The position numbers were made by a program, and so were the translations under genes. Under the pieces are notes generated by a model that searched no databases, had not been told where the DNA came from, and saw only the letters and a program-made list of their open reading frames with translations. A stretch of 64,000 nucleotides of DNA from Selenomonadaceae bacterium. Lineage in GTDB: Bacteria > Bacillota > Negativicutes > Selenomonadales > Selenomonadaceae. The stretch covers positions 1 through 64,000 of the forward strand of contig JAFRRH010000052.1 in assembly GCA_017428215.1 (NCBI GenBank). Direction: 5' to 3'. Positions 4,822 through 38,314 of this stretch are shown here, in pieces. Every line of letters starts with the position of its first letter. The stretch's first letter is position 1.

Positions 4822-5715
4822 TCATGGTAATAATTGCGAGATACTCGCGCGATTTTGATTGAACATTTTCATTCCGAAGAGTGCAAATTGTTCTTGAACT
4901 TGCTGATTGCGCAACTGTACAACCTGCGCGGCAATATCGGCGTCGCCAATGGTCGAGCCAAAATTCATTTGATTTTCTTCCATTGTCGCATAATTCTTCG
5001 CTTGGAATTCAAGACGTTGAAGTTGTGCACCTTGCGTCGTCGCCTCGTCCAATGCCACGTCGAACGTGTCAAAAGTAAAGCCGTCGACAACATAATCTCC
5101 CAATACGTGCATATTGTCGAGAATATCTCCGACTTTTGTTTTGGCAGTGTCAACAAGTTTTAAAGAATTTTTCGCCGCGTCAATCGTCGACACGTCGAGT
5201 TTAACATTGCCCTGTTCGTCGGTCAATCCCAAAGTCTCCGCACGCAAATCGCCGACTTGAAAATTCTCGTAGCCGTCAATGCCTGCCAAAACCATGCCAT
5301 TGCGAGAGCCGTCAAGCATATTCATGCCATTGTATTGCACATAAGCATTAGCGTCGATTTGAGCGATAATTTGATTGACATTTTTTTGAATAGCCTGGCG
5401 GTCAAGCGAACCGTTCGAGTCGTTAGCCGCGTTGACAAGTTGTTCCCTAATCGCCCTCAATGCGTCAATGGTGTTAGTCGTCGCACCTTCGGAAACTTTA
5501 ATCGCCGAACTTATATTCTGCGTGTTCCTAATCGATTGCGAAGTTGCGCCGATGTTGTTTGCAAGTTTTGCGGCTATAGCGTATTCAGAGGCACCCGTTG
5601 ACGCGGTCGGATGATTAGAACCGCTAGATATTTTATCGACAGTTCTCTGCGTAGCACGATTAATGCTATTATACATGTTAACTGAAGAATTTACGCCGCC
5701 CACTGTCATAGCCAT
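4822..5715 (-). CDS. Flagellin-family protein (short)
   Basis: The 297-residue protein has both conserved flagellin ends: an N-terminal helix region with SSVNMYNSINRA, KISSG and ASEYAIAAKL, and a C-terminal region with DIAAQVVQLRNQQ and SISQLLP. These are the D0/D1 parts that polymerise into the filament core; the central variable region is small. Flagellins pass through the flagellar type III export gate and have no signal peptide, which fits. AAAGGGTG precedes the ATG. No other flagellar gene is in the window, so this is an isolated filament gene and may be one of several flagellin copies. The N-terminus differs from the commonest flagellin start, so a minor flagellin is possible. Confidence 0.88.
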   Translation of the reverse strand: MAMTVGGVNSSVNMYNSINRATQRTVDKISSGSNHPTASTGASEYAIAAKLANNIGATSQSIRNTQNISSAIKVSEGATTNTIDALRAIREQLVNAANDSNGSLDRQAIQKNVNQIIAQIDANAYVQYNGMNMLDGSRNGMVLAGIDGYENFQVGDLRAETLGLTDEQGNVKLDVSTIDAAKNSLKLVDTAKTKVGDILDNMHVLGDYVVDGFTFDTFDVALDEATTQGAQLQRLEFQAKNYATMEENQMNFGSTIGDADIAAQVVQLRNQQVQEQFALFGMKMFNQNRASISQLLP

Positions 5716-24534: not shown

Positions 24535-24565
24535 TTTTATAAAAAATTTTATGGAGATTAACGCT

Positions 24566-25165
24566 TTGAAAATTGGAATAATGGGAGGAACCTTTGACCC
24601 AATACATTTGGGACATTTGGCAACGGCGGAGGCTGTTCGCGAAAATTTTTCACTCGACGAAATTTTATTTATCCCCGCCGCTCGCCCGCCCCATAAGCTC
24701 GGAAAAAAAGTTACGGACGAAAGCCACCGCTTAGAAATGACAATCCTCGCGACGCAATCAAACAAATTCTTCCGCGTCTCGGATATGGAACTTAAGCGCA
24801 CGGGACTTTCCTACACGCTTGACACGATGAACGAACTGCATAAAACTTTTGGACACTCGACGGAATTATTTTTTATAATCGGCGCAGATTCGTTAGCGGA
24901 TTTATCTAAGTGGCACGCGGCAAAAGAATTAGTCGCTAAATGTCACTTCATAGCGACGACACGGCAGGGCGTGGACGTGAACTTTTCAGCGGTAGAAAAA
25001 TTTTTCGGCGCGGCGGCAATGGAACATATTCACCGAGTGACTACACCAGGACTTGAAATTTCCTCAACCGACATTCGCGAAAAAGTTAGGTGCGGTCGTT
25101 CGATAAAATATCTTGTCCCCGAAGTTGTCGAAGAATATATTTTGCGGGAGGAGCTTTATCTGTGA
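24566..25165 (+). CDS. nadD: Nicotinate-nucleotide adenylyltransferase
   Basis: 199 residues. NadD joins nicotinate mononucleotide and ATP to give deamido-NAD in NAD synthesis. The nucleotidyl-transferase signature GGTFDPIHLGHL is at residues 7-18 and [10 protein letters not shown] near the C-terminus is the second ATP-binding motif. TTG 24566 with GGAG 10 bases upstream gives the family start MKIGIMGG; ATG 24551 lacks a site. The stop overlaps the GTG of the first GT61 gene. Part of its 3' end recurs 1.87 kb downstream. Confidence 0.93.
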   Translation: MKIGIMGGTFDPIHLGHLATAEAVRENFSLDEILFIPAARPPHKLGKKVTDESHRLEMTILATQSNKFFRVSDMELKRTGLSYTLDTMNELHKTFGHSTELFFIIGADSLADLSKWHAAKELVAKCHFIATTRQGVDVNFSAVEKFFGAAAMEHIHRVTTPGLEISSTDIREKVRCGRSIKYLVPEVVEEYILREELYL

Positions 25166-26784
25166 CAAATTTGAATTATCTTTACAATCCCGAACCCGCT
25201 AAAAAATCTCCGGTTTTCAATAGAAAATATTTCGTTGACAAAAAGTTGAGTTTCCGAACCATTGAAGACGGTATGATTCTTCCGCCTAGCCCTATTGACG
25301 ATGACGGAAAAAAGAAATTCCTCGGCTACGGTGGCATTGTCGATAACAATGGAAAATATATAAAAGAAAGTTTTATTCATTACGAAACCGGCGGAAAGTA
25401 TACGCCGCCCTCCGAATCAATTCAACGTAGCAATGAAACTGTTATTTATCTAGGAACTTCTTGGCCTGTATGGGGACACGTAATCACTGACAATCTTCGT
25501 CGTTTGTGGTTCTTGAATAGCGAATACTTTAAATCGTTTAAAAATTGTCCACTCGTTTACATTATAACTGGGAGTAATATTAAGCAACAAAAAAACTTCT
25601 GTAGATTGCTTGAAATTTTAGGAGTTGATGTTGAAAAACTTCGCCCAATAACTCAACCAACACAGTTTGAAAAGATTATTCTTCCCGATGAATCCTTTGA
25701 TACTGTTTCGCTAAAAGGATTTACGGCGGAATATAAAGAGACTATTGATCGCTTAAGAGAATTTGCGCTGAAAAATTATACGCCAATCTCAAGCAAAAAA
25801 ATTTACTACTTTCACGGCTTAAGAGCGCAGATTGGTGCAGAACGGCTTGCAGATTATTTAAAATCTAAAGGTTACGAGATAGTTTCGCCCGAAAAGTTAC
25901 CTCTCGATGAACAGCTCAATCTCTTGATAAAATGCGAAAGCTTTGCCTCGACGCTTGGCTCCTGCTCGCATAATTCGTTATTCCTTTGTGACAAAACAGA
26001 AGCCATTTTCATTCCTCGTAATCCCAACAGATTTACAGTTTATCAGCCGGTTATAGACGAACTCCGCTCTTTAAATGCAACTTATGTCGATACATCGTTG
26101 TCTATATGTGGCAATTATACATTGGGTCCGTTTTATTACATGCTTAGCGAGCAGTTAAAGAGATTTTTTGGCGATAAATTTGACGGCTACGAAGAAGAAG
26201 ACTTTAAAACTTTTTTGCAATATGTAAAATATTCGCTGGATAAGAATTATGTTCTTAATCAAAGTTTTGTAGCCGGATATGGTTCAATTCTCTCTGACTT
26301 TATAGAACAGTTGCGGCGGCGCAAGGATTTATTAGAAGATTTCGGAATGGATTCGTTTGACTGGAAAACATTTCAGCCGAAACTTAATTATCAAACGCAT
26401 GTCGCTGCTAGAGGTTGGAGCGATGGTTGGAAGGACGAGGATAAAATTAGCAATCCCCTCGACCAAAAATGGGACATTCAAGCGATTAAAATAAATTTCT
26501 CTCCTTACAAAGTATATTACTCTGTTTATTACAATGCCGAAGAAGGCTGGTCGGAAGAAGTTTTATCGCCGGATATGGCGGGCACGACCGGCAAAAGCAA
26601 ACCTATTTACGGCATCAGAATTCGTCTTGACGAGGCAGGCGCAAAGAAATTCGATATTCTCTACCGCGTGCATAAATTTGACGATACGTGGACAACTTGG
26701 GCTAAGAACGGCGAGGCGATTTATTCATACGGAATTAAATTAAATGCGATTCAAATAAAATTGGAAACTAAGGCGGATGCATGA
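25162..26784 (+). CDS. GT61-family glycosyltransferase with C-terminal ChW-like repeats, copy 1
   Basis: 540 residues. The first 350 resemble the GT61/DUF563 family: [52 protein letters not shown] and [18 protein letters not shown]. The C-terminal 140 residues show Trp-centred repeats like clostridial hydrophobic W domains ([43 protein letters not shown] with LNAIQIKLE). Such repeats are wall- or surface-binding in other proteins; here they may dock the enzyme. GTG start overlaps the nadD stop, with GGAGGAG about 9 bases upstream. It probably builds a surface glycan. Confidence 0.82.
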
Positions 26785-26809: not shown

Positions 26810-27037
26810 ATGACTATTGACGAAATGCGGCGCGAACTCCAACGCTGGCTAAAGAAAAGCAGATTCGCGCATTCAATCGGCGTGGCTGCTAAAGAATATA
26901 TTCACCGAGTGATGACGCCGGGACTTGAAATTTCCTCAACTGATATTCGCGAAAAAATTCGGCGCGGGTGTTCGATAAAATATCTCGTACCCGAAGTCGT
27001 CGAAGAATATATTTTGCGGGAGGAGCTTTATCTGTGA
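26810..27037 (+). CDS. Chimeric YqeK-head/NadD-tail frame
   Basis: 75 residues: the first 26 match the YqeK start ([20 protein letters not shown]) and the rest matches the NadD C-terminus ([13 protein letters not shown], ending ILREELYL). It keeps the yqeK ribosome site and the overlap into the next GT61 start, so it may be translated and used to couple that gene. It lacks the YqeK HD residues and the NadD HxGH motif, so no enzymatic role is expected. Confidence 0.75.
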
Positions 27038-28659
27038 CAAATTTGGATTATCTTTACAATCCCGAACCCGCTAAAAAATCTCCGGTTTTTAATAGAAAAT
27101 ATTTTGTTGACAAAAAGTTGAGTTTCCGAACCATTGAACACGGTATGATTCTCCCGCCTAGCCCTACTGGCGATGACGGAAAAAAGAAATTTCTTGGCTA
27201 CGGTGGCATTGTCGACAAAAATGGAGACTATATAAAAGAAAGTTTTATTCATTACGAAACCGGCGGAAAGTATACGCCTCCCGCCGAATCAGTTCAACGT
27301 AGCAATAAAACTGTTATTTATCTAGGAACTTCTTGGCCTGTATGGGGGCACGTAATCACTGATAATCTTCGTCGTTTGTGGTTCTTGAACAGCGAATACT
27401 TTAAATCGTTTAAAAATTGTCCACTGGTTTACATTGTAACTTGGAGTGATATTAAGCAACAAAAAAACTTCTGTAGATTGCTTGAAATTTTAGGAGTCGA
27501 TATTGAAAAACTTCGCCCGATAACTCAACCAACACAGTTTGAAAAAATTATTCTTCCCGATGAATCATTTAATATACTCTCTCCACTAAGCGGATTTACG
27601 GCGGAATATAAAGAGTCGATTGATCGTGTAAGAGACTTCGCGCTTAAAAATTGTACACCGACCTCAAGCAAAAAAATCTATTACTTTCACGACGTAAAAG
27701 CGCAGGTTGGCGCGGAACGGCTTGCAAAATATTTTAAAGCTAAAGGTTACGAAATTGTTCGTCCTGAAAGATTAACGCTTGATGAACAACTCAATCTCTT
27801 AATAAACTGCAAAAGCTTTGCCTCGACGCTCGGCTCCTGCTCGCATAATTCGTTATTCCTTTGTGACAAAACCGAATCAATTTTCATTCCGCGTAATCCT
27901 GATAGATTTACAGTTTATCAGCCGGTTATAGACGAACTCCGCTCTTTAAATGCAACTTATATCGATACATCGTTGTCTATATGTGGCAATTCTTTGATAG
28001 GTCCGTTTTATTACATGCTTAGCGAGCAGTTAAAAAGATTTTTTGGAGATAAATTTGACGGCTACGAAGAAGAGGACTTCACAAATTTTTTGCAATATAT
28101 GAAGTATTCGCTGGATAGTGGTAACGATCTTAATCAAGATTTTGTAGAGGGTTATGGTTCAATTCTCTCTGACTTTATAGAACAGTTGCGGCGGCGCAAG
28201 GATTTATTAAAAGATTTCGGAATGGATTCATTTGACTGGGATAAATTTCGTCCGAAACTTAGTTATCAAACGCATGTCGCTGTTAGAGGTTGGAATGATG
28301 GTTGGAAGAATGAGAATCAACTCAGCAATCCCTTAACTAGAAAAAATGATATTCAGGCGATAAAGATAAATTTACCTGGTTACAAAGTATATTACTCGGT
28401 TTACTATAATGGGCAAGAAGGCTGGTCGGAAGAAGTTTTATCGCCTAAAATGGCAGGCACGACCGGCGAATCTAAATCAGTTTACGGCATTAAAATTTGG
28501 CTTGACGAAACGGGCGCAAAAAAATTCGATATTCTCTACCGCGTGTACAAGTATGATGGCAAGTGGACTTCTTGGGCTAAGAACGGCGAAATAATTTATT
28601 CACATGGCATTAAGTTAAACGCGATTCAAATAAAATTGGAAACTAAGGCGGGTATATGA
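27034..28659 (+). CDS. GT61-family glycosyltransferase with ChW-like repeats, copy 2
   Basis: 541 residues, a diverged paralog of 25162-26784 with the same domain order: GT61-like part ([45 protein letters not shown]) then Trp-rich repeats ([43 protein letters not shown]). Changes are scattered, including [10 protein letters not shown] where copy 1 has SLKGFTAEY. Motifs seem intact in both, so both may be active on different acceptors. GTG overlaps the chimeric frame's stop exactly as copy 1 overlaps nadD. Confidence 0.82.
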
Positions 28660-31548: not shown

Positions 31549-32091
31549 TTACTTGTCCAGCCAATCACTCATGCCCAAATGTACGACATATTCTTTAGCA
31601 CATTCGTAATAATGCATAGCCGAAGTCCTTAGCGCGACAATCTCGTCCTCGCGAAGGGCACGCATAATCTTAGCGGGATTGCCGAAGACAAGCGAATTAT
31701 TCGGGATTTTTTTATATTGCGTGATGACTGTACCCGCGCCGATAATGCAATTGTTGCCAATCTCCGAGTAGCCGAGAATTATCGAGCCCATACCGATTAA
31801 ACAGTCGTCGCCGATTGAGCGGCAATGAATAATCGCGTTGTGCCCAACAGTTACGTAGTTGCCAATTTCGGTCGGCGTATCGCCCATAACGTGAACGGTA
31901 CAATTATCTTGAATGTTCGTGTAGTTGCCAATCCTTACGGGCTGAAAATCACCGCGAACCGTGACACCGAACCAAATGCTTGCCCCTGCTCCAATCACCA
32001 CGTCGCCGACAACAGAGGCACTCGGCGCAACAAAAACATCTTTAGCGATTTTCGGCTGCTTGCCCTTATAAGGCAGAATGACGGGTTCCAT
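31549..32091 (-). CDS. Gamma carbonic anhydrase-like hexapeptide-repeat protein
   Basis: 180 residues of left-handed beta-helix: hexapeptide turns VGDVVIGAGASIWFG, VRIGNYTNIQDNCTVH, IGNYVTVGHNAIIHC, IGDDCLIGMGS and IGNNCIIGAG. The three His ligands of gamma-class carbonic anhydrases are at NCTVH and VGHNAIIH. Family members hydrate CO2 or act as acyl carriers; activity is not certain. AAAGGAGG lies about 9 bases before the ATG. Confidence 0.9.
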   Translation of the reverse strand: MEPVILPYKGKQPKIAKDVFVAPSASVVGDVVIGAGASIWFGVTVRGDFQPVRIGNYTNIQDNCTVHVMGDTPTEIGNYVTVGHNAIIHCRSIGDDCLIGMGSIILGYSEIGNNCIIGAGTVITQYKKIPNNSLVFGNPAKIMRALREDEIVALRTSAMHYYECAKEYVVHLGMSDWLDK

Positions 32092-32119: not shown

Positions 32120-35100
32120 TTACGTATCGCTTCTGTGCGGGAGCCATTCCACTTGAATTTTAACTTCCTCGTTGGCTTTTACGTCTATGCTGTGGTTGTA
32201 GGCTTTATCGTGCCAAGCGGGCGTAATTTTGTCGAATATTGTTTTGCTGTTAATCGTCAGCTTAGTGTAGTCAATCCAAATGGGAATTCGTTTAGAGTTA
32301 TCCTTAGGGTCGCGTACATCTAATCCCATAAGAGCTAAATTAATTTTTCCGTCTGCAGTTGCTTTAGCAATGAAATCCATTTTGCCTGCATAGGATTGAA
32401 TTTGATAGCCTACCCCGCCCTTCTGTAACCAGGCAGGTTTGCGAACTTCGGCTTGATTATCCGACATGGAAAGAATTTGGAAATCGCCCTCTGTCGACTG
32501 TAATTTAACGTCCATTCTGCTACTAACATAGGGCAGGAATTTATCCACGAGCGGCTTTTCCACAGGTTTATCCGGTAAAATGTTTTCTCTATGCGGTAAC
32601 CATTCCACTTGAATTTTAACTTCCTCGTTGGCTTTTACGTCTATGCTGTGGTTGTAGGCTTTATCGTGCCAAGCGGGCGTAATTTTGTCGAATATTATTT
32701 TGTCGTTAACAGTCAGCTTAGTATAGTCAATCCAATAAGGAATTAATTTAGAGTTATCCTTGGGGTCACGTACATCTAATCCCATAAGCTTCAACTGAAT
32801 TTTTCCGTCTGCAGTTGCTTTGGCAATGAAATCCATTTTGCCTGCATAGGATTGAATTTGATAGCCGACTCCGCCCTTCTGTAACCAGGCAGGTTTGCGA
32901 ACTTCGGCTTGATTATCCGACATGGAAAGAATTTGGAAATCGCCTTTTGCCGACTGTAGTTTAACGTCCATTCTGCTACTAACATAGGGCGGGAATTTAT
33001 CAGCAATCGGCTTCTCCACAGGTTCGGGTATTGCAGGCAAAATGTCGCCTCTGTGCGGTAACCATTCAAATTGAACCTTAATTTCCTCGTTGGCTTTGGC
33101 GTCCATAGTGTAGACATAAGGTTGATCATGCCAAGCTGGCGTAATTTTGTCGAATATTATTTTGCCGTTAATCGTCAGCTTAGTGTAGTCAATCCAATAA
33201 GGAACTAATTTAGAGTTGTCCTCAGGGTCTTGAACCCACATTCCTCTAAATTCAAAACTAACTCGACCGTTTGCAGTGGCTTTGGCGACGAATTCCACTT
33301 TGCCCGCGTAGGACATAATTACATAGCCAACGCCGCCATTTTGGAACCAATCGGGTTTTATGGCTTCCGCTTTATCATCGGACACAGAAAGCAGTTCAAA
33401 ATCGCCCTCTGTTGACCAGAATTTGAAATCCACTCTGCCCGTAATGTGGTTTCTGAATTTACTGATTATCGACGTATTTTTCTCTTTAAAAAGAGCAGAG
33501 CACAGCGCAGAAATCGGAACATCATAATCCCCCAGCCGTTCGCTGAATTCATCTTTTATCGTCTCGTAAACTTCCAACACAGAAAGTTGTGCTGCATCGT
33601 TAAAGCCCGCGGTTATTGTATCATTAACGAACCTTTCCAAAATAGCGTAGCGTTGTTTCGGATTCGTCTTGAAGAATTCATGCTTACTCATAAAGTTGTC
33701 GAGAGTCTTTAGACCTAACAGGAAGGGATTCAAATGAAAATTCAGTGCTTGTTGCGGTGACTTTTTAATCCCTGTTATCGAATCATTTCTCATGCGGCGA
33801 GTATATATTATGTTCGGCACACGTAAAAACTTTTTAGCGGAAAAAATCAATCCGTAAGTCCAAATATCATCGTCGCCAATCGTTAAACCTGGGAAAAATA
33901 TCTCATTTTTTAGTAGTAGGTTACGCTTGACTAATTTATCCCAAGGCACAACCCAAAATCTATAGTTCAATATTCCTTTAACACGTTCAGATAAATCTTC
34001 AGTTTCAAGTGTTGGCTTGTCGACAAAAGGTGGCGGTTGCATTTCTGTGTCAGCAATATGAATATTTTTGATAAATTCTTCGCCTACGCCCGTCGACATG
34101 AAATATTTTTCGCAATAAACAACATCAGCGTCGTATTTTTTTGCGAGTTCGTACATCTCCTCCAGAGCTGTCTTCGTTAACATATCGTCGTTATCCATGT
34201 TATAAACATATTCGCCGCTCGAATGGCTGAGTCCAATGTTCCTAGCAATCGCGCCACTACCAAAATTTTTATCTGTATTATACAGTTTTAGTCGTCCGCC
34301 AAATTTTTCAACGTAGCTTTCGACAATTTTTACGCTGTTATCAGTTGAGCAATCGTCGACGATGATAACTTCAAAATCTTTAAATGTTTGCGCAAGAAGG
34401 CTATCCAAACATTCAGCGATATATTTCTCGGCATTGTACATAGGAATAATAACCGAAATTGCCGTGAGATTTTCCGTGATAGATATAGGGGCGAATTTCT
34501 TCTGATCAATTTTGCTTTCAGTCGAAAAAGCTTTATCAATATCAGCAATATGCGGGAGCCACTCCACTTGAACTTTAATTTCTTCGTTGGCTTTTATGTC
34601 CATGCTGTGGTTGTAGGGTTTATCGTGCCAAGCGGGTGTACGCTTGTCAATTATCGGCTTGCCATTAATCAACAACTTCGTGTAATCAATCCAAGCGGGA
34701 ATACGTTTAGAGTTGTCCTTTGGGTCACGTACATCTAATCCCATAAGCTTCAATTGAATTTTTCCGTCTGCGGTGGCTTTAGCAACGTACTCCATTTTCC
34801 CTGCATAAGACTGAATTTGATAGCCTACTCCGCCCTTCTGTAACCAAGCAGGTTTGCGAACTTCAGCTTGATTATCCGACATGGAAAGAATTTGGAAATC
34901 GCCTTTTGACGACTGCAGTTTAACGTCCATTCTGCTACTAACATAGGGCGGGAATTTATCAACAATCGGCTTTTCTATAAGTTTGGGAGCCTCTAGCAAA
35001 TTGTCAGCTCTGTGCGGGAGCCATTCAAATTGAACCTTAATTTCCTCGTTGGCTTTGGCGTCCATAGTGTAAACATAAGGTTGATCATGCCAAGCGGGCG

Positions 35101-37924
35101 TAATCTTGTCAATTATTGACTTGCCGTTAATCGTCAGCTTAGTGTAGTCAATCCAATAAGGAACTAATTTAGAGTTATTATCAGGGTCTTGAACCCACAT
35201 TCCTCTAAACTCAAAACTAACTCGACCGTTTGCAGTGGCTTTGGCAACGAATTCCACTTTACCCGCATAGGACATAATTACGTAGCCAACGCCGCCATTT
35301 TGGAACCAATCGGGCTTGAGAACTTCAGCGTTATCGTCGGACACGGAAAGAAGTTCAAAATTGTCCTCTGCTGACCAGAATTTGAAGTCCACTCTGCCCG
35401 TAACATATGGCAAGAATTTTTCCACCGGTTTAATCGATAAAATATCGCCACTATGCGGGAGCCATTCAAATTGAACCTTAATTTCCTCGTTGGCTTTGGC
35501 GTCCATAAAGTAAACATAAGGTTGATCATGCCAAGCGGGCGTAATTTTATCGAATATTGTCCGCCCGTTTATCGTCAGCCTGGTATAGTCTATCCAGTAC
35601 GGAATTAATTTAGATTTATCTTCCGGGTTTTGAACCCATATTCCCCTAAACTCAAAACTAACTCGACCATTTGCAGTGGCTTTGGCAACGAATTCTACTT
35701 TGCCCGCATAGGACATAATTACGTAGCCGACGCCATCCTTTTGGAACCAATCAGGTTTGAGAACTTCAGCTTTATCATCGGACACGGAAAGAAGTTCAAA
35801 ATTGCCCTCTGCTGACCAGAATTTGAAATCTACTCTACCAGTAAAATAGCGGCTGAATTTACGCATAATCTGCGTTTGAGTATCAATTTTTGAGAAATCT
35901 GACAACGCATATAAGAAGAATTCCATCAAAATCGTTTGTTCAGAATCAGTGAATATCTCTTTTAAAACTCTATTGCGATCAGGATCAGAAATTTCATGAT
36001 AAATTTTTTGTATATACAGTTCCCATATTTCCTTTAAATAGGTGCTGAGGGCAATGCGTTTGATTTCAGGATTTTGTTGAAAGAACTCTTTTTTGCTCAA
36101 AAATTCATCTAAATACTTAAAGCCGAATTTTAACGAACTCAGGTATGTTTTTAATTGCTGTAAGGGTTCACGCTTTTGATGATATAAAGAGTTTTCACGT
36201 ATACGATAAAAATTAACTGCATATGGCACTCGTACAAATCTTTTTGCAGTGTAAGCCATGCAACAAGTCGCTAAAAAATCCTGAATAATATTTTTCGTGA
36301 AATGGATTTCATTTTCTATCAGGAAATCGCGACGAATTAATTTAGTCCACAGTTCCCATAAGAATTTGCGATCGTAACAATCTTGCACGCGTTGAGGAAT
36401 ATTAAAAGGGATTAAAGTCGGTTCCGATACAGGACCGCCCTGTTGATAGCCATGCGGTTCGAGGTTCTTTCTAAATTCGACGTCATTCCAATGTTTTTCT
36501 GGCACCCAATAATATTTATCGCAAGCAACCACGTCGGCATCAAATTTTTTTGCGGTAGTGTAAAGTTTTTCGAGCGCGTCGGGGGTTATGGTGTCGTCAT
36601 TGTCCATTATGAATAAATATTCGCCACGCGACAAGGCAACGCCAATATTTCCCGGCTCTCCTGGACTGCCAGTATTTTTGTCTGTTTTTGTAAGTTTGAG
36701 CCGCCCGCTGAAGCGCGTCCCGTAACTGTTAACGATTTGGATACTATTATCGGTTGAGCAATCATCAACCGCGATAACATCAAAATCTTGAAAAGTCTGA
36801 TCGAGGAGGCTGTCAAGACATTCCCCGATATATTTTTCAGCGTTGTACATCGGAATAATAACCGTGATGCATTTTTGATTCGTAGCTGATTGGAGTCGAT
36901 AGGTATTGTTAAACAGAAACGACGTAAACGCGCTATCGTCGCCTAATTCTTTTCTTAAGAGCTCGTCAACATTATAGGGTGGAGATTCATCATAGACCTT
37001 TTTGAGTAAATATATAATTTCATTCATAAAGGCATTAAATAAAGCATATTTTAAATTGGGTCTATGCGAAAAAAATTCACTAGTACTTAAAAATTTGTCG
37101 ATATAATTTATTCCGTTCTTTAAAGTTAATGCGTATTTGTGAATTATTTCTGTCACACCAAGATTTATGTGATCTTTTACTGACGAATCTTTCCTTAAGC
37201 GATATAGATAAAAAGTATTCGGCATAACGAGATAATTTTTTGCGCAACAAATTTCGCACATAGTAAAAATCATATCTTCGGCATAAATATCTGCAAATCG
37301 AATTTCATTTTCGAACATAAAATCCCGGCGAACCATTTGCAGGCAGACGCTCCACGTTAGCCACCTTTTTTGACAGAAATCTTTAACTCGCTCTTCAATG
37401 TCTTTCGTCAAAAGTGTAGGTTGCGTTGTAAAAATTCTTTCTCCTGACGGGTGAACAGTAGGCTTTACGTTTTTCCTATATTCGGCGTCGTTATAATGTT
37501 CTTCGGGAATACCATACCATTTTTCGCAGTGAACAACGTCCGCGTTAAATTTTTTTGCCGCTTTATACATTTCTTCAAGTGCAGTTGGCGTAATTGTATC
37601 ATCGGGGTCAATAAAAGATATATATTCGCCGGTAGAAAGTTCAATGCCGATATTACGCGGTTCACCTGCCCCGCCAGAATTTTTTTCCGTTTGTGCAATA
37701 GTGAGCCGCCCTTTAAATTTCGATTCATAGCTTTTGACGACTTCGCGGCTTTTATCTGTTGAGCAATCATCTACTACGATAACATCAAAATCTTGGAACG
37801 TCTGAGCTAGAAGACTGTCGAGACATTCGCCAACATATTTTTCCACATTATACAGTGGGATAACTACAGAAATTGCAGAAGTTGCCCGGGGGGAATTATT
37901 TAACCAGTTAACAACGTTTTCCAT
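32120..37924 (-). CDS. Giant glycosyltransferase: three GT2 domains and six beta-rich repeats
   Basis: 1934 residues. Order from the N-terminus: GT2 domain at about 15-330 (VVIPLYNVEKYVGECLDSLL, IDPDDTITP), GT2 at about 355-690 (VIIPMYNAEKY, MDNDDTITP), three roughly 140-residue modules at about 690-1126, GT2 at about 1156-1490 (VIIPMYNAEKYIAECLDS, MDNDDMLTK), then three more modules to the end. All three GT2 domains keep VDDCS and a DxDD metal motif. Modules come in two types, RVDFKFWS (1, 2, 4) and RMDVKLQS (3, 5, 6), each ending EWLPH; I cannot name their fold, though a carbohydrate-binding sandwich is plausible. No signal peptide. It probably assembles a surface polysaccharide. Confidence 0.85.
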   Translation of the reverse strand: MENVVNWLNNSPRATSAISVVIPLYNVEKYVGECLDSLLAQTFQDFDVIVVDDCSTDKSREVVKSYESKFKGRLTIAQTEKNSGGAGEPRNIGIELSTGEYISFIDPDDTITPTALEEMYKAAKKFNADVVHCEKWYGIPEEHYNDAEYRKNVKPTVHPSGERIFTTQPTLLTKDIEERVKDFCQKRWLTWSVCLQMVRRDFMFENEIRFADIYAEDMIFTMCEICCAKNYLVMPNTFYLYRLRKDSSVKDHINLGVTEIIHKYALTLKNGINYIDKFLSTSEFFSHRPNLKYALFNAFMNEIIYLLKKVYDESPPYNVDELLRKELGDDSAFTSFLFNNTYRLQSATNQKCITVIIPMYNAEKYIGECLDSLLDQTFQDFDVIAVDDCSTDNSIQIVNSYGTRFSGRLKLTKTDKNTGSPGEPGNIGVALSRGEYLFIMDNDDTITPDALEKLYTTAKKFDADVVACDKYYWVPEKHWNDVEFRKNLEPHGYQQGGPVSEPTLIPFNIPQRVQDCYDRKFLWELWTKLIRRDFLIENEIHFTKNIIQDFLATCCMAYTAKRFVRVPYAVNFYRIRENSLYHQKREPLQQLKTYLSSLKFGFKYLDEFLSKKEFFQQNPEIKRIALSTYLKEIWELYIQKIYHEISDPDRNRVLKEIFTDSEQTILMEFFLYALSDFSKIDTQTQIMRKFSRYFTGRVDFKFWSAEGNFELLSVSDDKAEVLKPDWFQKDGVGYVIMSYAGKVEFVAKATANGRVSFEFRGIWVQNPEDKSKLIPYWIDYTRLTINGRTIFDKITPAWHDQPYVYFMDAKANEEIKVQFEWLPHSGDILSIKPVEKFLPYVTGRVDFKFWSAEDNFELLSVSDDNAEVLKPDWFQNGGVGYVIMSYAGKVEFVAKATANGRVSFEFRGMWVQDPDNNSKLVPYWIDYTKLTINGKSIIDKITPAWHDQPYVYTMDAKANEEIKVQFEWLPHRADNLLEAPKLIEKPIVDKFPPYVSSRMDVKLQSSKGDFQILSMSDNQAEVRKPAWLQKGGVGYQIQSYAGKMEYVAKATADGKIQLKLMGLDVRDPKDNSKRIPAWIDYTKLLINGKPIIDKRTPAWHDKPYNHSMDIKANEEIKVQVEWLPHIADIDKAFSTESKIDQKKFAPISITENLTAISVIIPMYNAEKYIAECLDSLLAQTFKDFEVIIVDDCSTDNSVKIVESYVEKFGGRLKLYNTDKNFGSGAIARNIGLSHSSGEYVYNMDNDDMLTKTALEEMYELAKKYDADVVYCEKYFMSTGVGEEFIKNIHIADTEMQPPPFVDKPTLETEDLSERVKGILNYRFWVVPWDKLVKRNLLLKNEIFFPGLTIGDDDIWTYGLIFSAKKFLRVPNIIYTRRMRNDSITGIKKSPQQALNFHLNPFLLGLKTLDNFMSKHEFFKTNPKQRYAILERFVNDTITAGFNDAAQLSVLEVYETIKDEFSERLGDYDVPISALCSALFKEKNTSIISKFRNHITGRVDFKFWSTEGDFELLSVSDDKAEAIKPDWFQNGGVGYVIMSYAGKVEFVAKATANGRVSFEFRGMWVQDPEDNSKLVPYWIDYTKLTINGKIIFDKITPAWHDQPYVYTMDAKANEEIKVQFEWLPHRGDILPAIPEPVEKPIADKFPPYVSSRMDVKLQSAKGDFQILSMSDNQAEVRKPAWLQKGGVGYQIQSYAGKMDFIAKATADGKIQLKLMGLDVRDPKDNSKLIPYWIDYTKLTVNDKIIFDKITPAWHDKAYNHSIDVKANEEVKIQVEWLPHRENILPDKPVEKPLVDKFLPYVSSRMDVKLQSTEGDFQILSMSDNQAEVRKPAWLQKGGVGYQIQSYAGKMDFIAKATADGKINLALMGLDVRDPKDNSKRIPIWIDYTKLTINSKTIFDKITPAWHDKAYNHSIDVKANEEVKIQVEWLPHRSDT

Positions 37925-37939
37925 TTACTCCATCCTTTC

Positions 37940-38314
37940 TTAAAAATTTGTTATGACTTCAAAGGCATTTTCAATATGATTAATATCCTCGACGCGTTCG
38001 CCGCGCAGATAAATTTCTACAACGTCAAAACGGCAGGCATAATCGCAAAATTTTTCATCTTGTAAGAAGACGCCTGCCGCCTCGATAATTTTTTTCTGCT
38101 TACGAAGATTAACAGCCTCGCTCGGCAAGCCGTGACGAATATTTGAACGCGCCTTGACCTCGACGAAAACAATTACGTTATCAATTTGTGCGATTATATC
38201 AATCTCCGCCGAACGAATCCGAAAATTCCTCGCGACGATTGTATAACCCGCCGCCTCAAGAAATTTTGCCGCGCAGTCTTCGCCGAGTTTGCCTAAATTT
38301 TTTTGCGTGCTCAA
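37940..38314 (-). CDS. YraN-family (UPF0102) nuclease-like protein
   Basis: 124 residues with a restriction-endonuclease-like core: GKLGEDCAAKFLEAAGY, AEIDIIAQIDNVIVFVEVKARS (D...ExK), and LRKQKKIIEAAG. UPF0102 members are found next to DNA-repair and ribosome genes; the function is not settled. It overlaps the nitroreductase by 4 bases (ATGA), so is in its operon. Confidence 0.9.
   Translation of the reverse strand: MSTQKNLGKLGEDCAAKFLEAAGYTIVARNFRIRSAEIDIIAQIDNVIVFVEVKARSNIRHGLPSEAVNLRKQKKIIEAAGVFLQDEKFCDYACRFDVVEIYLRGERVEDINHIENAFEVITNF

Follow-up and report, generated by a model that had tools for sequence, protein, structure and literature searches.

How did a bacterium come by a protein in which three family 2 glycosyltransferase (GT2) domains are interleaved with six copies of a second module, and what might such a chain do? 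The question is raised by an open reading frame in the window, the 64,000-nucleotide stretch of Selenomonadaceae DNA analysed here, which is read from an ATG on the minus strand at 32120..37924 as one 1934-aa protein, at the place and of the length given in a preliminary description of this DNA. The repeat module is referred to below as R, its copies as R1 to R6 and its two types as A and B. The features on which the analysis is based are as follows, with the two flanking genes marking the edges of a variable site that is discussed further on.

37940..38314, minus strand: UPF0102 (YraN-like) gene, upstream neighbour and one boundary of the variable site
32120..37924, minus strand: 1934-aa protein, GT2-GT2-A-A-B-GT2-A-B-B, from ORF, motif and domain mapping
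36923..37900, minus strand: GT2 number 1, residues 9-334; VDDCS at 51, DPDD at 106, E216-D217
35918..36916, minus strand: GT2 number 2, residues 337-669; VDDCS at 386, DNDD at 441, Q548-D549
35453..35836, minus strand: R1, type A, residues 697-824
35012..35395, minus strand: R2, type A, residues 844-971
34550..34933, minus strand: R3, type B, residues 998-1125
33455..34504, minus strand: GT2 number 3, residues 1141-1490; VDDCS at 1189, DNDD at 1244, D1351-D1352
33053..33436, minus strand: R4, type A, residues 1497-1624
32591..32974, minus strand: R5, type B, residues 1651-1778; the unit used for the structure model
32135..32518, minus strand: R6, type B, residues 1803-1930, 4 aa from the C-terminus
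31549..32091, minus strand: hexapeptide-repeat, gamma-carbonic-anhydrase-like gene, downstream neighbour and second boundary of the variable site

A domain search of the whole protein, which the preliminary description had suggested, matched Pfam PF00535 in three stretches (E 1.4e-105, 350.9 bits against a cut-off of 23.3) and left R unnamed in the libraries used. The three GT2 domains claimed earlier are thus present, each with the VDDCS and DxDD motifs attributed to it (residues 51, 386 and 1189, and 106, 441 and 1244, respectively), and the reported order of repeats (A A B, GT2, A B B) is confirmed, with two further GT2s in front of it. The repeats are six in number, as had been stated, and shorter than the ~140 residues assigned to them: they are ungapped units of 128 aa with a spacing of 147–154 aa inside each block. 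Type A (RVDFKFWS) comprises R1, R2 and R4, and type B (RMDVKLQS) R3, R5 and R6; identity is 88–92% among A units, 86–93% among B units and 61–65% between the types, and the six copies are detectable at the DNA level, without translation. The protein has no hydrophobic segment, its top 19-residue Kyte-Doolittle mean being 1.35, and its gene lies among housekeeping genes, outside any glycan operon. Elsewhere in the window, at 4822-5715 on the minus strand, is a 297-aa protein matching only the N-terminal flagellin domain.

A syntenic ortholog bears on whether such a long frame is real. Locus L025 (CAMJRX01, 'uncultured Selenomonadales'), from a separately published MAG, carries an open 2098-aa frame with the order GT2-GT2-R-R-R-R-R-GT2-R-R and has the neighbours of the window gene, a nitroreductase and UPF0102 before it and the hexapeptide (gamma-carbonic-anhydrase-like) gene after it. 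GT2 numbers 1, 2 and 3 are 88%, 86% and 88% identical to their L025 counterparts, with dN/dS values of 0.099, 0.114 and 0.097, and purifying selection acts on all three. Judged by the motifs, every R block in both species opens with an A unit after a GT2 and closes with a B unit, the blocks being A A B and A B B in the window protein and A B B B B and A B in L025. An assembly error that joined separate genes, the possibility raised in the preliminary description, or that miscounted R units would draw on the near-identity of some units (R5 and R6 are 92% identical over 300 nt, and two L025 units are identical over 384 nt) and on the occurrence of GT2-GT2-R and GT2-R as separate genes at this site in Quinella sp. 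1Q5; yet the GT2 order, both flanks and the open frame recur in L025, from another MAG, and we regard such an artefact as highly improbable. The domain order is sound in the light of L025; the exact repeat number is less sure, because near-identical R units could be miscounted from short reads.

The nature of R was explored through its fold and its sequence profile. An AlphaFold2 model of one unit (R5), the kind of prediction that had been proposed for one module, reached a pLDDT of 95 and is all beta apart from one short helix, a predicted β-sandwich with weak likeness to carbohydrate-binding module (CBM) and PA14 folds. Foldseek returned CBM51 as the best match (E 7.7e-3), with CBM35 and GH31 chains among the next; VIA-align gave Z 5.9 for a GH3 enzyme and 5.6 each for the GH31 enzyme 5jou and CBM51, its top row being a virus tail protein (Z 6.0). 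Over the GH31, GH3 and CBM51 chains the scores against the PA14/CBM sandwich fold ranged from Z 5.0 to 5.9, weak matches that agree with the earlier label of carbohydrate-type repeats and that, being this low, may reflect only the common sandwich. The R sequence profile also matched GH31 alpha-xylosidases (5jou, E 0.0052; 2xvg, 0.10; 7kmp, 0.17), and the profile and fold matches fall on the same GH31 stretch; the region of GH31 and GH3 enzymes concerned we take to be a PA14 domain. With a broader R profile the values were 0.028, 0.012 and 0.48, and the top match was an unrelated protein labelled pD5-14. The resemblance to these enzymes (5JOU, 2XVG, 7KMP) is therefore weak, if concordant in profile and fold over one stretch, and the matched region is an insert in hydrolases, whereas R has no Pfam PA14 match: for the whole protein PA14 was absent from the listed matches, which extended to E 10 although filters remove most of those above about 0.1, and none of 60 R units gave a PA14 match up to E 0.01. 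B4GALNT3 (LacdiNAc synthase) is reported to be a glycosyltransferase whose activity requires a non-catalytic PA14 domain (PMC11254600); it differs in being an animal enzyme with one PA14.

Across the 60 units any one Pfam family was matched in at most 7 at E 0.01 or better (best 0.0013), and the first R unit matched none. PF08948 and PF20736 exceeded the cut-off for the whole protein only with the repeats pooled; among single units PF20736 reached at best E 0.0017, with 7 units at E 0.01 or better, and PF08948 was found in none of the 60 at E 0.01. Naming R after either family was dropped, as single units match weakly or not, and R is without a Pfam family.

The distribution of R is narrow. 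The host genome, an incomplete assembly (88.6% complete, 73 contigs), has 18 R copies on nine ORFs, some of them cut by contig ends. Within its genus, a group (g1) that includes Quinella sp. 1Q5 (G030), R occurs in 17 of 66 genomes, the host's own included, and is missing from several that are 93–99% complete. At the family level it is present in 21 of 189 genomes (17 of the genus, 2 of genus g301 and 2 of g302); a broader profile found it in 4 of 250 class genomes (the host's own, one more of the genus and two of family f15), and among 398 phylum genomes sampled only the host's own had it. All 37 R loci from a profile scan of a genome contig collection are titled Selenomonadales, Selenomonadaceae or Quinella. 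No relatives of R were found in viral contigs, in phages or, with a sister-genus R as query, in plasmids, and a viral or plasmid origin was rejected on these grounds; a viral fold library gave no match to R at E 0.001 or less. R is thus a lineage-specific accessory module. A literature search returned no description of GT2/R interleaving or of a shared module R. Quinella has an envelope of the Gram-negative type and an uneven surface layer by microscopy, according to the searched text of the Quinella genome paper (PMC9585023), which names GT families and not the 1934-aa protein.

In the host genome R is joined to GT2, to GT11 plus GT2, to a citrate-lyase-ligase-like nucleotidyltransferase and to an Asn-synthase-like class, and in relatives to GT8 plus GT2, GT92, sulfotransferase-like, Asp2/hydrolase-like and DUF6270 proteins and to proteins without a match. 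The R carriers with weak Asn-synthase-like matches have SGGxDS in 6 of 13 cases (fragments and relatives counted) and no Pfam match in those scanned; at ~750–800 aa (L018 5295-7562, L102 5877-8132 and relatives) they form an unnamed R-carrying family. The number of GT2s per R-bearing ORF is 0, 1, 2, 3 or 4, and that of R copies 1 to 7. R is unnamed in the libraries used. The view that no standard family has the architecture of the window protein holds only locally, since three or more GT2s occur in 6 of the 57 R-bearing ORFs (the window protein included) and L025 is a syntenic ortholog.

R is the last of the R/GT2 domains in 56 of these 57 ORFs, those cut by contig ends included, and ends exactly 4 aa before the protein end in 37; in the sister genera R, where C-terminal, stops 12–37 residues before the C-terminus. 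Such a position would suit a C-terminal sorting or secretion signal, but R is internal in the window protein and N-terminal in four relatives, three sister-genus proteins and one in the genus:

L102, residues 19-144 of 405: N-terminal R
L104, residues 36-164 of 489: N-terminal R
L105, residues 27-156 of 906: N-terminal R
L108, residues 27-149 of 922: N-terminal R

Its partners, moreover, include GT2 enzymes, which use cytoplasmic nucleotide sugars. A sorting role is accordingly very unlikely, and because internal and N-terminal positions occur, R is an accessory module and not an obligatory C-terminal signal. Long tandem (VADKAVAPTPKPP)-type linker repeats precede R at L017 1-801 and L041 3-737, in two species.

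When 79 R units were compared, with rows of unknown class and same-locus pairs dropped, the nearest R belonged to the same enzyme class in other genomes for 71; for the other 8 it was on an enzyme of a different class within the unit's own genome, in one case because no same-class row was available. In Quinella sp. 1Q5 (L037, L033, L039) the R units of two AsnB-like proteins and a GT8-GT2 protein are 83–88% identical, with 84–88% between the AsnB-like pair and the GT8-GT2 protein against 60–73% to the AsnB-like class elsewhere, which by all appearances is recent module exchange between enzymes of one genome. Strain-wide homogenisation of R across classes, clear in this genome, is not general (8/79) and was set aside.

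Successive internal duplication, the origin proposed in the preliminary description for the protein, applies to the R repeats and not to the GT2s. The three GT2s are only 41–47% identical to one another, and in a tree of 63 GT2s number 3 falls in a 19-row clade (100/97) and numbers 1 and 2 in a 9-row clade (99/94), each of the three having kin in other proteins. Judged by this tree, which rules out an internal origin of the three, the GT2s are old, separately shuffled lineages that did not arise by internal duplication. In the comparison of modules with those of relatives, which had also been proposed, the B units of the window protein are closest to each other and next to those of L025; from their identities and kinship, the R units evidently arose by internal duplication and evolve together.

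The site between the UPF0102 and hexapeptide genes is variable across the 30 loci examined. In a survey in which 60 genomes were searched, 57 gave a match and the contents of these 30 loci were tallied by eye, R without visible damage was present in 5 (one cut by a contig end), a decayed GT2/R remnant in 1, and GT2 genes without R within 1.5 kb in 10; 7 were empty, with UPF0102 directly adjoining, and 7 had nothing recognisable or a contig end. The gene remnant at L086 (G032 C116) has stops inside its R fragments. Quinella sp. 1Q5 has two genes at the site, GT2-GT2-R (899 aa) and GT2-R (506 aa), and a simple end-to-end fusion of the two is not supported, as the GT2 types run 3,2,R and 2,R there versus 1,2,R,3,R in the window.

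With respect to catalysis, the VDD, DxDD and base-Asp positions are kept in all three GT2s, of which number 1 has a sequence match in the PDB to TarS (5tze, E 5.6e-26). At the positions of TarS R75, D91, D93, D94, E177 and D178 number 1 has R, D, D, D, E and D; number 3 has Asp at the E177 position, and number 2 has Gly at R75 and Gln at E177, likewise in L025. The R75 column is Arg in 58 of the 63 GT2s, the only two Gly being those of GT2 number 2 in the window/L025 pair. Because this Arg is missing and the R75A substitution abolishes TarS activity according to the TarS study (PMC5156392), GT2 number 2 may be inactive or altered in donor choice; it is still preserved by selection.

A GT2-R-R model built with GT2 number 3 (pLDDT 80.8, pTM 0.54) has a GT-A head and a helical bundle, followed by two sandwiches on linkers of pLDDT <50. 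Against the PDB it matched TarS with Z 28.3 (rmsd 3.4, 285 aligned), TarP with 27.0, RmlT with 26.9 and chondroitin and heparosan synthases with ~22; no solved structure aligned over GT2 plus R, the VIA rows covering model residues 11-343, and the Foldseek TM to 5tz8 was 0.31. Staphylococcus aureus TarS, a wall teichoic acid beta-GlcNAc transferase (5TZ8, 5TZE), shows the same order of a GT2 GT-A head, a helical bundle and tandem C-terminal sandwiches, which in TarS are CBM-like, and has the same DxDD and xD base motif, whereas it has one GT2 and two CBM48/68-like modules where the window protein has three GT2s and six interleaved R of another sandwich type. The TarS study reports that the tandem CBM domains trimerise and that their removal lowers polymer affinity and processivity while catalysis persists (PMC5156392). 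The next best structures, Listeria monocytogenes RmlT (8BZ4-8BZ8) and S. aureus TarP (6H1J), are likewise GT2 enzymes that decorate glycopolymers, with a single GT2 and without R. Escherichia coli K4 chondroitin synthase (2Z86) and Pasteurella multocida heparosan synthase 2 are two-domain polymerases of the GT2 type, without R modules. Several GT modules plus others are combined in one chain in the O-polysaccharide assembly proteins O7 ORF6 (with two GT2) and O12 WbbB of Klebsiella pneumoniae, which are reported to have a coiled-coil spacer where the window protein has repeated sandwiches (PMC11231755). The window contains another pair of GT-plus-accessory-module proteins, conserved in L025: two GT61 proteins encoded in tandem on the plus strand (564 aa at 25090-26784 and 563 aa at 26968-28659), both of which carry a ChW (Clostridial hydrophobic W) repeat towards the C-terminus. 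A cytidylyltransferase-like gene (24551-25165) lies beside them.

On balance, we consider it somewhat probable that the 1934-aa protein is a multifunctional GT2 enzyme, soluble and probably located in the cytoplasm, by which sugars are added in a TarS-like manner to the precursor of a surface glycan; a cytoplasmic location is suggested because the GT2-R-R model is TarS-like and the protein has no hydrophobic segment. Each GT2 would consist of a GT-A catalytic head followed C-terminally by a helical bundle, and flexible linkers would connect the heads to tandem β-sandwich R modules; these would hold the acceptor glycan, a putative ligand, or pair the enzyme with partners. R would in this way concentrate the acceptor locally around two or three active sites, and two or three sugars, possibly different ones in succession, would be added to the glycopolymer or lipid-linked acceptor that it holds. 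These Selenomonadaceae also join R to other glycan-modifying enzymes, all of which may be directed at a single common polymer.

Compatible with a TarS-like enzyme are the junction of R to several classes of glycan-modifying enzymes and the linkers of low pLDDT, which would string the modules like beads. A host-genome homolog on C73, which has four GT2s and R and is truncated where the contig stops, overlaps a gene whose product is a membrane protein of sulfatase fold. Genes of similar type stand ahead of GT or GT2 genes at L029, L044 and L045; Pfam was run on two of these four sulfatase-fold genes, and the others were judged by shared end sequence. A membrane protein of this kind, which presumably resembles phosphoethanolamine or LtaS-type transferases, fits envelope work as a neighbour. 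Sulfatase-fold membrane genes lying upstream of GT/GT2/R genes and overlapping the next frame were observed at L014 2048-3919 and L045 2775-4619 (plus strand). Against the TarS-like reading stand the weak fold matches of R (no better than E 7.7e-3 in Foldseek or Z 6.0 in VIA-align), the description of the TarS modules as CBM48/CBM68-like, a type different from R (PMC5156392), the finding that alignments to solved structures did not extend over GT2 plus R, the location among housekeeping genes instead of a glycan operon, the missing R75-equivalent Arg of GT2 number 2, and the likeness of R by class (71/79), where a strain-specific common ligand would favour likeness within a genome.

Some of the same observations could be read differently. 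R might be an oligomerisation or scaffold module, tandem R docking on the R of other enzymes in a glycan-assembly complex without sugar binding. It is common to enzymes of unlike chemistry, it varies from 1 to 7 copies per ORF, as for a valency device, and the CBM-like domains of TarS are reported to trimerise (PMC5156392). No result points to R-R contact, the GT2-R-R model being of a single chain with flexible linkers, and we hold a scaffold to be possible, if unlikely. Three GT2s per chain, and the presence of chondroitin synthase 2z86 and heparosan synthase among the PDB matches, would instead recall a processive polymerase, one of the roles considered in the preliminary description, whose GT2s would alternate on a growing chain, as in those two-GT2 enzymes. 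This is decidedly improbable, as TarS, TarP and RmlT rank higher (Z 26–28 versus 22), GT2 number 2 is without the key Arg, and R-bearing relatives have 0–4 GT2s and so no fixed repeating set.

The acceptor could also be flagellin or another surface protein and not a polysaccharide, given that at L045 GT2 and R genes lie ~0.8–4 kb from the gene of a 681-aa flagellin and that the host genome has seven flagellin matches over the cut-off, one of them in the window. We find this quite doubtful: the window gene is ~26 kb from the flagellin fragment, few R genes adjoin flagellin among those with neighbours listed, and among the enzymes joined to R are sulfotransferase- and nucleotidyltransferase-like ones.

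Chains with several GT2s have precedents, as has the combination of GT2 with CBM-like modules. The present analysis defines an accessory module that lacks a Pfam family, is multi-copy in part of an uncultured genus from the rumen, and is linked to enzymes expected to construct or decorate the cell surface. We tentatively suggest, as a possibility that is rather unlikely to hold in full, that R is a common handle, one glycan-binding or docking module on unlike enzymes (GT2, GT8, GT11, GT92, and sulfotransferase-, amidotransferase- and nucleotidyltransferase-like) through which dispersed genes without an operon would act on one surface polymer, and that tandem multi-GT2 chains with a variable number of R would be evolvable encoders of sugar sequence. 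The diversification of surface sugars could be studied at the variable GT2/R site, flanked as it is by two conserved genes. If R recognises a common glycan, scattered genes could act on one polymer, and R would serve as a probe for it in uncultivable bacteria.
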